Shown here in pieces: positions 21,097 through 26,439 of a stretch of DNA of 43,040 nucleotides; the first letter of the stretch is position 1; each line of letters opens with the position of its first letter. Source of the DNA: Dehalococcoidia bacterium (GTDB lineage: Bacteria; Chloroflexota; Dehalococcoidia; Tepidiformales; Tepidiformaceae); NCBI GenBank assembly GCA_020432105.1, contig JAGQGZ010000005.1, positions 1 through 43,040 of the forward strand, in the 5' to 3' direction. The translations under genes were made by a program, and so were the position numbers. The notes under the pieces are model-generated. The model made no database searches. It was not told the origin of the DNA and was given only the letters and a program-made list of their open reading frames with translations.

Positions 21097-21263
21097 CCTG
21101 CGCTCTCCCCGGCTGCCGCAACCCCGCCACCGAGGCGGGGGAGATGTGCGCGGCATGCGGGCATTGGCTGCGGTCCGCCACGACTCGGCTGACCGCCGAC
21201 GACATCCGCGCGAGAGACGAATACGTCCAACGGGCATACCAGCAACAAAGGAGCAAGCGATGA
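21093..21263 (+). CDS. Small Cys-rich protein (56 aa)
   Basis: ATG 21093 is in an ATGA overlap. TCALPGCRNPATEAGEMCAA followed by CGHW gives four Cys in a compact zinc-binding pattern. A helical basic end (ARDEYVQRAYQQQRSKR) follows. An AAAGGAG ribosome site for the next gene lies in its 3' end (about 21247-21253). Confidence 0.6.
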   Translation: MTCALPGCRNPATEAGEMCAACGHWLRSATTRLTADDIRARDEYVQRAYQQQRSKR

Positions 21264-21778
21264 GTGAGGAACTGCTCGACCGGATCGCGAATGTCATGGC
21301 CGATACAGCGCAAGCCATGTGCGAATCGTGGGACCGCACCGGCGTCCCACCGTGGCAGGGGGAGTGCGACTTCGGGCCTATCGCCGACGCGGCGCTCCGT
21401 GAACTGGGCCTGTCTCACGCTGGGAGCCAAACGACGAATACCGAACTGAGCGCCCGGATCGCGGCGGTTATGGAAGCGCACGACGTTAACAGCGACTGCC
21501 AGTGCCACGACTACATCACCAACTGGTTTGACCACATGGCCGACGCGATCCTCGCCATGCCCGGTATCGCCGTGGTCGAACTGCCTGAACCGGTCTACGG
21601 GCCAGATGGCGGCGGTCAGTTCGGTTGGGATACCGCCATTTCAACGGTCACGGCAACACCCGACGAGGACGGCTACTGGTCAGTTTGGGATCAGGACTTC
21701 CAGATGGAACCTCACGAGGCCCGTGACCTCGCCGCCGCTCTCCTGGCTGCAGCCGAGTACGCGGAGCGTGACCAGTGA
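21260..21778 (+). CDS. Hypothetical protein, DRIA-paralogue family (copy 1, extended)
   Basis: The product has 172 residues. It starts SEELLDRIANVMADTAQAMC and has a second internal half (SARIAAVMEAHDVNSDCQCH) that repeats the same layout. It ends with ILAMPGIAVVELPEPVYG and AARDLAAALLAAAEYAERDQ-like elements shared with the next gene at DNA level. It looks like the result of tandem duplication of a small domain. Unknown function. Confidence 0.65.
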   Translation: MSEELLDRIANVMADTAQAMCESWDRTGVPPWQGECDFGPIADAALRELGLSHAGSQTTNTELSARIAAVMEAHDVNSDCQCHDYITNWFDHMADAILAMPGIAVVELPEPVYGPDGGGQFGWDTAISTVTATPDEDGYWSVWDQDFQMEPHEARDLAAALLAAAEYAERDQ

Positions 21779-22101
21779 CTGACACCCTGCGCGACCGGAT
21801 CGCGGACATCGTGGCCCACGAGGACCTACCTGGCGCATGGGACACCGCGCTGGCTGCCGCCGACGCGATCCTCGCCCTGCCCGGTATCGCCGTGGTCGAA
21901 CTACCGGAACCGGATCACCATGAGCCTGCCGCCGACGATGTGAACGGCTATGTCGAGTGGCACTACCCGCACGGGAGCATCGCCGTCACTGATGACGGGA
22001 CGATCATGTGGGAGCGCTGGCATATCCACGACCCATCTAGGGTTCGCGCCGCCGCTGCCGCTCTCCTGGCTGCCGCCGACTACGCGGAGCGTGAGCAGTG
22101 A
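21548..22101 (+). repeat. Tandem-duplicated gene segments in paralogous small genes
   Basis: The segment from 21548 (coding ILAMPGIAVVELPEP) recurs at about 21869 (ILALPGIAVVELPEP). The segment at 21737-21778 recurs at 22060-22101 with only a few substitutions, ending in GCGGAGCGTGA(C/G)CAGTGA. The two copies lie in adjacent overlapping genes. The pattern indicates gene duplication in place. Confidence 0.8.
21775..22101 (+). CDS. Hypothetical protein, DRIA-paralogue family (copy 2)
   Basis: The product has 108 residues and GTG 21775 is in a GTGA overlap. It begins TDTLRDRIADIVAHEDLPGA and ends AAAALLAAADYAEREQ. It is a clear paralogue of the preceding protein and of the one at 26101 (SDTLRDRIATVI). 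The central part is rich in Trp, Asp and His (VEWHYPHGSIAVTDDGTIMW), suggestive of a small beta-sheet. Unknown function. Confidence 0.65.
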   Translation: MTDTLRDRIADIVAHEDLPGAWDTALAAADAILALPGIAVVELPEPDHHEPAADDVNGYVEWHYPHGSIAVTDDGTIMWERWHIHDPSRVRAAAAALLAAADYAEREQ

Positions 22102-22295
22102 GCGAGTGCAAGCACTGTGGCCGTGCGATTCACACTGGATCGCCTGATCGCGGCTATGTCCATCGGGGTGATTGGGGCGGTGCGAGTAAGAGCCGCTGCG
22201 ATCCTGATGAGAGCGGCCTCCCGTATGGGTACAACGCCGCTCCTGTTGGGGAGCCGTGCCAGTGGCCGTGCATCGGCGCGGAGCGTGACCAGTGA
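22098..22295 (+). CDS. Small Cys-rich protein (65 aa)
   Basis: GTG 22098 is in a GTGA overlap. SECKHCGRAIHTGS gives a CxxC knuckle, with further Cys at RCDPDE and CQWPC. It ends GAERDQ using the same 3' DNA module as its neighbours. Probably a zinc-binding mini-protein; function unknown. Confidence 0.6.
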   Translation: MSECKHCGRAIHTGSPDRGYVHRGDWGGASKSRCDPDESGLPYGYNAAPVGEPCQWPCIGAERDQ

Positions 22296-22432
22296 ACTAC
22301 ACGCGCATGAATATGTGGATTCGGACCAATTCCGGTGAGGACAAGTGCGTTCAGTGGTGCCGCGATTGCGGCGCGCTGGTCGTGGACAGGGCCAGGCACG
22401 ACGAGTGGCACGAAGCGGAGCGTGAGCAGTGA
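22292..22432 (+). CDS. Small Cys-rich protein (46 aa)
   Basis: GTG 22292 is in a GTGA overlap and the stop is TGA 22430-22432. It contains CVQWCRDCGALVVD, three closely spaced Cys plus a following His, a possible zinc ribbon. It ends EAEREQ, encoded by the recurrent junction module. Unknown function. Confidence 0.5.
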   Translation: MNYTRMNMWIRTNSGEDKCVQWCRDCGALVVDRARHDEWHEAEREQ

Positions 22433-22653
22433 CCGCGTTCACCACCGACGACATTGCTCTCGGTATCGAGATCCCCGGCGTGTACGACGGGACTGCCTGC
22501 TGGCTACTGAAGGACGGAACCCTCGTCAACAGGTTCGCGGGCCAGGACGGTTGGGGCAGCAGGGCGCAACGCGTCGATGAGTGGATCGCCAAGCACGGCG
22601 ACCAACTCCGCGCGGACAACCAAGACCTACTCGAACCAAGGCGTGAGCAGTGA
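22429..22653 (+). CDS. Hypothetical protein (74 aa)
   Basis: GTG 22429 is in a GTGA overlap. The beta-like first half TTDDIALGIEIPGVYDGTAC WLL-type segment is followed by GQDGWGSRAQRVDEWIAKHG and a charged end RREQ. The family was not recognised. The stop again lies in a GTGAGCAGTGA junction. Confidence 0.55.
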   Translation: MTAFTTDDIALGIEIPGVYDGTACWLLKDGTLVNRFAGQDGWGSRAQRVDEWIAKHGDQLRADNQDLLEPRREQ

Positions 22654-22793
22654 CCCTCGCCCAGTCCCCGTCGCCAGTCTGCCTGTGCGGGCACCCCTTC
22701 CACGCGGGGACGTGCAACTGGCGCCCAAGTGCAGACACGCACGGAGTCCTCTACTGCCACTGCCCCGACGGCGAACTGGACGGAGACCGATGA
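22650..22793 (+). CDS. Small Cys/His protein (47 aa)
   Basis: GTG 22650 is in a GTGA overlap; TGA 22791-22793 overlaps the next ATG. CLCGHPFHAGTC and CHCPDG form two Cys pairs plus His residues, a plausible zinc mini-domain. Unknown function. Confidence 0.5.
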   Translation: MTLAQSPSPVCLCGHPFHAGTCNWRPSADTHGVLYCHCPDGELDGDR

Positions 22794-22981
22794 CCACTTA
22801 TTTCTACGCACAGTTTCGCGTCGTTCCTTGCTCATATTGCGGCGCTCAAATCGGAGAACACTGCCGCAACCGCAAAAAGCCTCAACTGTGGGCGCAGCCG
22901 CACGCGGACCGAATCAGGGTCGCCGCGATGGAGCTGAGGCGAGCAAGCCAAATCCGACCACGACGGGACGGCGACCGATGA
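22790..22981 (+). CDS. Zinc-finger-like protein (63 aa)
   Basis: ATG 22790 is in an ATGA overlap. VPCSYCGAQIGEHCRNRKK followed by an H-A-D-R-I helix matches the common actinophage C-x2-C-G-A-x2-G-x2-C zinc finger with a downstream His. DNA- or RNA-binding is possible from the basic C-terminus. Confidence 0.6.
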   Translation: MTTYFYAQFRVVPCSYCGAQIGEHCRNRKKPQLWAQPHADRIRVAAMELRRASQIRPRRDGDR

Positions 22982-23397: not shown

Positions 23398-24018
23398 ATG
23401 ACGCAGGACTTACCTGGCGCACTGCTGGCCCGGGACAAGCTGCTCGCAATGGCCGCCGATCCCGATCTGACTGGAGATGCCGAACTGTTCGCCTTCTGCC
23501 TGCTGGCCCACTTGACCGAGAAACGGCTGACGGGCCGGAATAACAACTGGATTGAAGCAGTCGGCGAGATGATGTCACCGGACGCCGATCACGGGGCATG
23601 GAGTTGCCGTCGGGTCATAGCAAAAGACATCCCCCGCTACGAACCACCAATCCTGAAGACCCGCGGCTGCATCGCTCTGAAATCCCGCGGCCCCAACGCC
23701 GGAAAGCCCTGCGGTAAGGGCGGGTCCACATGGTTGGACCGCGACCCAAGCACAGGGGAGGCGCGTTGGCTGAGCTACTGCCCCCGACACATGCCAGCAG
23801 GTGCGCATCAGTCGCGCCAGGACCGGCACCGCCATTGGGAGCTGAATGGAAAGCCAATGCCACCGGCGAACACGGGCGGCGTCCTAGCCAGGTACTTCAG
23901 CACTAACTGGGCGAAGATGTACGCGTGGGCCGACCCGCACACGGAGCCCTCGTCTACAGGTAAGCCTGCAACCCCGCCGAAACCGCGACTGTCCGTCATT
24001 CGCGGAGGGCTGTCGTGA
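23398..24018 (+). CDS. Hypothetical protein with central Cys/His motif (206 aa)
   Basis: ATG 23398 begins a 206-residue protein not assigned to a family. The N-terminal half is helical (LARDKLLAMAADPDLTGDAE, FAFCLLAHLTEKR). A central section has CIALKSRGPNAGKPCGKGG and LSYCPRH, four metal-ligand-like residues. The C-terminus is basic and Pro-rich (TPPKPRLSVIRGG). Position in the early operon before the second WhiB suggests a nucleic-acid-related role, unproven. Confidence 0.65.
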   Translation: MTQDLPGALLARDKLLAMAADPDLTGDAELFAFCLLAHLTEKRLTGRNNNWIEAVGEMMSPDADHGAWSCRRVIAKDIPRYEPPILKTRGCIALKSRGPNAGKPCGKGGSTWLDRDPSTGEARWLSYCPRHMPAGAHQSRQDRHRHWELNGKPMPPANTGGVLARYFSTNWAKMYAWADPHTEPSSTGKPATPPKPRLSVIRGGLS

Positions 24019-25857: not shown

Positions 25858-26104
25858 CCGCTACGGAGAAACGCCCTCAGATGCCCTCAGCCCCTCCGGG
25901 GCGTACGAGGGTGCCATCGACCGGGTTTGTCCGCTCTGCGGGGCAGCCAGGGGGCAGGAATGCACCTTCCAGACGCGCGACGAGACCGGCAGAACCGTCA
26001 CACGGCGGCGGCACCACCCCTGCATCGCCAGAACCAAGACGCTGTACTGCCGCCGATGCGGCATTCCGCACGACGGCGAATGCAAACGCCAGGAGGGCAC
26101 ATGA
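25850..26104 (+). CDS. Zinc-finger-like protein (84 aa)
   Basis: ATG 25850 lies 8 bases inside the initiator gene. Two Cys motifs are present: VCPLCGAARGQECTF (C-x2-C-G-A-x4-C) with a downstream HHPCIAR, and YCRRCGIPHDGEC. The first matches the short phage zinc finger also present at 22790. Probable nucleic-acid-binding accessory; the specific role is unknown. Confidence 0.65.
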   Translation: MPDRYGETPSDALSPSGAYEGAIDRVCPLCGAARGQECTFQTRDETGRTVTRRRHHPCIARTKTLYCRRCGIPHDGECKRQEGT

Positions 26105-26439
26105 GCGACACCCTGCGTGACCGGATCGCCACCGTCATCGACTGCCACACCTACAACGAATGGCACATCACCGACGACGCGCAGTGCTCATGCGGGAACA
26201 GCGGCGACCCCTACCCGACGCACGTCGCCGACGAGGTGATGGCCGTCATCGAACCCGCCATCGCAACCCAGGCCACCGACACCCGCCTGCTCGCCATCGG
26301 CTCCTGCATCGCCCTCATCGAGCACACCACCGCACTCGCCCAACAGGCCGAAACCGCCTACAACGCCGCCGTCATCGCCGAATGGTCCAACAAGATCACC
26401 ACCGCCATGCGCATGGCATCCGCACACATCACAAGCTGA
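26101..26439 (+). CDS. Hypothetical protein, DRIA-paralogue family (copy 3)
   Basis: The product has 112 residues and ATG 26101 is in an ATGA overlap. It starts SDTLRDRIATVIDCHTYNEW, then CSCGNSGDPYPTHVADEVMA, mirroring the N-terminal design of the proteins at 21260 and 21775. The C-terminal half is a long Ala-rich helix. Scattering of this family over 5 kb suggests duplication followed by divergence. Unknown function. Confidence 0.65.
   Translation: MSDTLRDRIATVIDCHTYNEWHITDDAQCSCGNSGDPYPTHVADEVMAVIEPAIATQATDTRLLAIGSCIALIEHTTALAQQAETAYNAAVIAEWSNKITTAMRMASAHITS

Follow-up and report, generated by a model that had tools for sequence, protein, structure and literature searches.

Genes 67 and 68 of the mycobacteriophage Island3 have a 3′ end of about 50-60 bp in common, in both DNA and protein, and the second of the two genes is without homologues. 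Brujita, which like Island3 belongs to Cluster I, lacks this second gene and carries a single recombinant copy. The authors proposed recombination between the common ends, and noted that no such case had been described in mycobacteriophages before (Pope et al. 2011, PMC3029335). Short conserved boundary sequences, which are named in the same paper, have been proposed for phage mosaicism. A different kind of repeat is found in Cluster K mycobacteriophages, whose start-associated sequences (SAS) hold a ribosome site and are found at genes from various families within the non-structural arm, mostly at genes more than 50 bp from the upstream gene. Their consensus is GGGATAGGAGCCC, with 11-19 copies per genome, half of them with inverted repeats; here, too, the authors mention recombination (Pope et al. 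2011, PMC3203893).

Here we describe an 18-bp module, GCGGAGCGTGA(C/G)CAGTGA, that ends successive small genes of a phage. As in Island3, adjacent genes, some of them unrelated, carry the same 3′ DNA. As with boundary sequences, short common DNA at gene borders would be the place of exchange, and as with SAS, a short sequence with a ribosome site is repeated.

Results

The window, that is, the whole stretch of 43,040 nucleotides that we analysed, is an entire contig of a 3.08-Mb genome bin of 399 contigs. Judged from the genes recognised in it (tyrosine integrase, KilA-C antirepressor and SPP1-type portal, together with RecT, PD-(D/E)XK nuclease and RusA, all three encoded within the window itself), it is a temperate actinophage or prophage. 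Overlaps of 4 bp, GTGA or ATGA, are the rule in this phage, and there are 31 such junctions in the window. The array is part of a series of small genes that read rightward with these overlaps, 3′ of RecT/RusA and a helix-turn-helix gene. Elsewhere in the window, ARAGORN called a tRNA-Pro (cgg) at 875-972, which overlaps the start of a 777-aa gene at 896 and is possibly spurious.

The module was first noticed in a sequence-only reading, which held that it ends four successive genes and gives each the protein tail ERDQ or EREQ, a GGAG-type ribosome site and a GTGA restart. All of this was borne out: four exact copies are present, all on the + strand (Table 1), and each of them has the tail, the ribosome site and the restart. 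No match beyond these four was found in the window with up to three mismatches allowed, nor were there further copies elsewhere in the 3.08-Mb bin. Shuffled sequences gave a mean of 0.21 matches, and 0 of 100 shuffles reached four. The same reading had a shortened form ending a fifth gene at 22653. A match is indeed found there, with the last 13 bases identical to the module, but the tail is RREQ instead of EREQ and AAGG replaces GGAG. Just beyond, genes F and G have a second junction type in common, GGACGG-GACCGATGA, identical at 16 of 18 positions and with the tail DGDR. The other GTGA/ATGA junctions of the phage differ in sequence from the module.

Table 1. Genes and shared junctions of the array (window coordinates)
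Feature	Coordinates	Strand	Description
Gene A	21260..21778	+	172 aa; DRI-type family phrog_1546/1573/2060, often labelled 'DNA methyltransferase'; ends in copy 1
Module copy 1	21761..21778	+	GCGGAGCGTGACCAGTGA; AERDQ*; GGAG; GTGA overlap
Gene B	21775..22101	+	108 aa; paralog of A (47%); core DNA 73-79% identical to mycobacteriophage genes
Module copy 2	22084..22101	+	GCGGAGCGTGAGCAGTGA; AEREQ*
Gene C	22098..22295	+	65 aa; Cys-rich; phrog_3468
Module copy 3	22278..22295	+	GCGGAGCGTGACCAGTGA; AERDQ*
Gene D	22292..22432	+	46 aa; Cys-rich (CxxC); weak relative Rhodococcus phage E3 gp39
Module copy 4	22415..22432	+	GCGGAGCGTGAGCAGTGA; AEREQ*
Gene E	22429..22653	+	74 aa; phrog_11360; Gordonia phage relatives
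Shortened module	22636..22653	+	CCAAGGCGTGAGCAGTGA; PRREQ*; 14/18
Gene F end	22776..22793	+	second shared junction type, CTGGACGGAGACCGATGA
Gene G end	22964..22981	+	CGGGACGGCGACCGATGA; gene G zinc-finger, PF24623

Each copy forms the final six codons, stop included, of one ORF (GCG GAG CGT GAC/GAG CAG TGA), and the next ORF starts within it, at the terminal GTGA. GGAG sits 8 bases 5′ of GTG in all four copies. With a stop/start overlap and a ribosome site inside the upstream gene, all four are predicted translational-coupling junctions. The single variable base alternates along the array, copies A and C having one base in common (A=C) and copies B and D the other (B=D). Similarity stops at the final A of the module, and the following genes start differently; on the 5′ side it extends further between A and B alone, as a 49-bp end that is 92% identical. 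Under position-specific base frequencies, calculated over several hundred real junctions (GTGA or ATGA) in related phages, the probability of the module pattern was 1.4e-7 per junction.

We looked for other functions of the repeat. Folding of the four junctions revealed no common RNA structure above shuffled sequences (z 0.0 to 1.3), and there was no Rfam match for them. Between 20200 and 24100, a search with simple consensus sequences detected nothing like a promoter, nor anything like a terminator on the + strand. In T4-type phages, PeSL promoter-terminator cassettes, the subject of reports by Arbiol in 2010 and Comeau in 2014, are said, by title, to mediate modular shuffling, and resemble the module in being repeated expression signals at gene borders; the lack of such sites by simple consensus led us to reject the module as a PeSL. 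An assignment to SAS was rejected as well. The SAS consensus had one match with two mismatches in the window, where 1.0 was expected, and all copies of the module lie at 4-bp overlaps instead of behind a gap of more than 50 bp.

The module had been read as 3′ DNA shared by unrelated proteins and hence as a possible recombination seam, a reading that would fall if homology of full-length genes explained the shared ends. For A and B the ends are so explained: the two are paralogs (47% identity, E 1e-12) of a DRI family (phrog_1546 and others) that is common in actinophages, and therefore their common end is ordinary homology. For C, D and E the explanation fails, since BLAST with the last ten residues removed detected no homology of these genes to A/B or to one another. 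From A to D the adjacent genes have 17-18 of 18 positions of 3′ DNA in common, stop included, with the bodies of C and D non-homologous. No Pfam domain scored over the cut-off in genes A-E. We note that the 5′ and 3′ blocks of A and B (21443-21778 and 21775-22101) are 92-95% alike while their cores have strongly diverged, as if the core had been exchanged; the core of B has up to 79% DNA identity to mycobacteriophage genes. A small gene at 26101-26439 also starts with MSDTLRDRIA like gene B and has a different body and tail, so that the DRI-type N-terminus seems to recur.

Relatives of the array genes end otherwise. Gene B relatives have the tails AEVTE or AGEEA, those of gene C (in Sneeze, EastWest, CheeseTouch and Angel) have other tails, those of gene E in Gordonia phages end in LDSTRS or LDEAFR, and E3 gp39, the weak relative of D, continues into an unrelated tail. 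The module tail is therefore local to the array of the window. Moreover, given the peptide AERDQ or AEREQ, each copy has a chance of about 0.012-0.013 of showing this codon string, and its Arg codon is always CGT, which is rare, at 9% of the Arg codons in the phage. The other tails in relatives and the rare CGT throughout indicate that the DNA was copied, and argue against both inherited family ends and convergence at the protein level. The homologue of gene C in Mycobacterium phage Sneeze is clear (75% identity; L013:1498-1731, at the genome end), and neither the Sneeze nor the Rabbs annotation has a gene over it.

In the 38 related host genomes searched, the window itself was the sole match, and single-protein searches of viral contigs returned few or no close relatives of genes B, C and E. 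No relative found carries the module array, and hence a crossover at the exact 18-bp module was not observed. The sole cellular relative found by an alignment-based scan of genome contigs was a prophage in an uncultured Mycobacterium. Its gene order is a DRI gene (tail AEESK), one gene, and then a DLPGAL gene, which is the homologue of window gene 23398-24018 as judged by reading both translations. In the window, the interval between the same landmarks holds two DRI genes and the run of small genes up to the DLPGAL gene at 23398. The junction copies are thus placed where gene content grew, or where it shrank in the other lineage.

A parallel module was found in mycobacteriophages. In Mycobacterium phage ChosenOne (MN586035.1; L016 860-2599), 6 of 7 successive genes end in GGGGAGGAAGC(A/G)TGA, with the tail GEEA. 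A 17-bp form of this module (GC added) occurs in at least 120 stretches of viral contigs, with up to three copies per stretch among the matches listed. At junction 42/41 of phage Dusk, the upstream side is identical to ChosenOne junction 1960 and the downstream side to junction 2599; the three intervening ChosenOne genes are missing, and the single differing base inside the module matches the downstream parent. Similar joins, of ChosenOne junctions 2169 and 2599, are present at Bobi 87/88 and Goku 41/40; these two are alike over the stretch compared, and a single inherited event may lie behind both. In all three phages the two parental alignments overlap by the module alone (17-18 bp), and on these alignments we firmly interpret the junctions as chimeras with the crossover inside the module. 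Recombinant single copies in relatives, the pattern of Island3 and Brujita, were accordingly found for the module of ChosenOne, Dusk, Bobi and Goku. The literature search returned no phage paper mentioning the string GGGGAGGAAGC among the matches listed, and the literature covered by the search, a part of what is published, contained no account of the serial GEEA module.

We then compared the partners of this module with those of other junctions. Of 138 distinct occurrences found, we retained only those flanked by an open frame on either side; their 61 upstream and 46 downstream contexts formed 105 combinations, with 13 four-gamete sets. By gene calling, 14/15 recurrent upstream clusters and 11/12 downstream clusters had more than one partner, versus 67/146 and 68/140, respectively, at other junctions. 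When the control was restricted to non-module junctions within 1.5 kb, several partners were seen in 25/42 upstream and 24/32 downstream clusters, and the excess at the module had p=0.02 upstream and 0.41 downstream. We do not claim a causal role of the module in exchange; the excess of reassortment shrinks in this control for hypervariable regions, which indicates that shuffling in these arrays is considerable at junctions of every kind.

Finally, we surveyed 712 junctions with 4-bp overlaps from 47 loci of actinophages and relatives, with mechanical gene calls. Non-homologous junction pairs identical at 15 or more of 18 positions made up 2.5% of neighbours and 2.4% of pairs at distance two, falling to 0.84% at 3-4 genes, 0.38% at 5-9 and 0.11% at 10 or more; between loci the figure was 0.18%. 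Permutation of junctions within loci gave p=0.001, with or without the window and ChosenOne. Because similarity falls with gene distance, sharing of junction DNA by neighbours is a general, weak trend, of which the window is a strong case.

Discussion

The 18 bp is probably a translation-coupling junction that has been copied along small early genes at gene joins. We see the module as mostly a footprint of gene shuffling, via insertion or exchange at translation-coupled junctions. The recombination seam proposed from the sequence is retained to this extent: identical DNA ends non-homologous genes whose relatives have other tails, but the end that A and B have in common is plain homology. By analogy, we infer that the array of the window was built by the same kind of events as the mycobacteriophage crossovers.

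In the scheme that we propose, a small gene would join the array by recombination ending in, or just 5′ of, an existing junction. Fused to the old 3′ end, the incoming gene would keep or acquire the same tail, and a further copy of the junction would result. The inserted gene would then have a junction on each side, the new copy could be used again, and recombination with an end in or beside a junction might add genes to the array or remove them. Breakpoints would survive there because of selection, as an operon would stay functional only where the join preserves the stop, the ribosome site and the following start. RecT and the PD-(D/E)XK nuclease, both encoded by the phage, are candidate enzymes, and annealing by RecT is a fair candidate for the reaction. 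Quoted pairing lengths are 23-27 bp for Red-beta and 31-34 bp for RecA (PMC3945230). Since 18 bp is shorter than the Red-beta length, rare but selected short-homology events, or illegitimate joins, are possible. This shortfall against both lengths, the absence of the array from the relatives found, the reassortment of non-module junctions and the mechanical gene calls of the control were all counted against the seam, and with them included we still consider it the probable explanation.

Could the same end have been remade without copying, by selection for good coupling with a ribosome site at a fixed distance from GTGA? A plausible role in the stop, GGAG or start can be given to every base, the phage is one in which such overlaps are the rule, and six unrelated viral contigs hold one exact copy of the module each, in unrelated contexts and several at plausible gene ends. 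Nevertheless, the remaining GTGA/ATGA junctions of this phage are different in sequence, base frequencies specific to junctions leave the pattern at 1.4e-7 per junction, the spacer bases and the rare CGT are identical in all copies, and the copies are adjacent rather than scattered, which together make convergence very unlikely. A repeat that binds a phage factor, an idea put forward for SAS, or a tail ERDQ/EREQ that affects protein stability, would account for a repeated sequence that carries a ribosome site where genes begin, as with SAS (PMC3203893). We regard such a regulatory or protein element as most improbable, given that the junctions have no common RNA structure, Rfam match or promoter-like site, that the one variable base changes D to E in the tail, and that gene E has RREQ.

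Tandem duplication of the DRI gene is closer to the explanation that we prefer. A and B would be full duplicates, and C and D would have replaced the bodies of further duplicates, leaving the 3′ end. The A/B blocks, about 95% identical, with a 49-bp 3′ end at 92% and a diverged core, agree with this, and the C/G alternation (A=C, B=D) fits a duplicated unit of two junctions. However, neither C nor D retains a trace of DRI sequence 5′ of the 18 bp, and the alternation concerns one base and may be chance. Duplication as the origin of the array is thus quite unlikely; it would still require exchange at the junction, and is therefore a version of copying at gene joins.

How phages gain many small genes without breaking their operons is an old question. 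Since boundary sequences are seldom observed, the usual answer is random illegitimate recombination followed by selection. Serial copies of a junction would be a readable footprint of gene gain, one that is countable in thousands of sequenced actinophages, both as junction similarity against gene distance and as crossovers inside the module. The GEEA module of mycobacteriophages, with isolates that form clean before-and-after pairs, is well suited for a direct test. More tentatively, and with the odds rather against it, actinophage coupling junctions might be self-propagating insertion seams, in which each join duplicates the junction and the array grows as a hot spot with a lineage-specific sequence.

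Among the described systems, the common ends of Island3 and Brujita are the nearest precedent for the module. Those are two copies of 50-60 bp, whereas the window has four copies of 18 bp and a partial fifth. Unlike in Island3, the stop, the ribosome site and the overlapping start all lie inside the module, which takes a serial form. From boundary sequences it differs in that it codes for the gene end and the next ribosome site and is serial within one genome. The module therefore resembles the Island3-type common 3′ ends, which were known; what is new here is a shared junction that is serial and bears the ribosome site.
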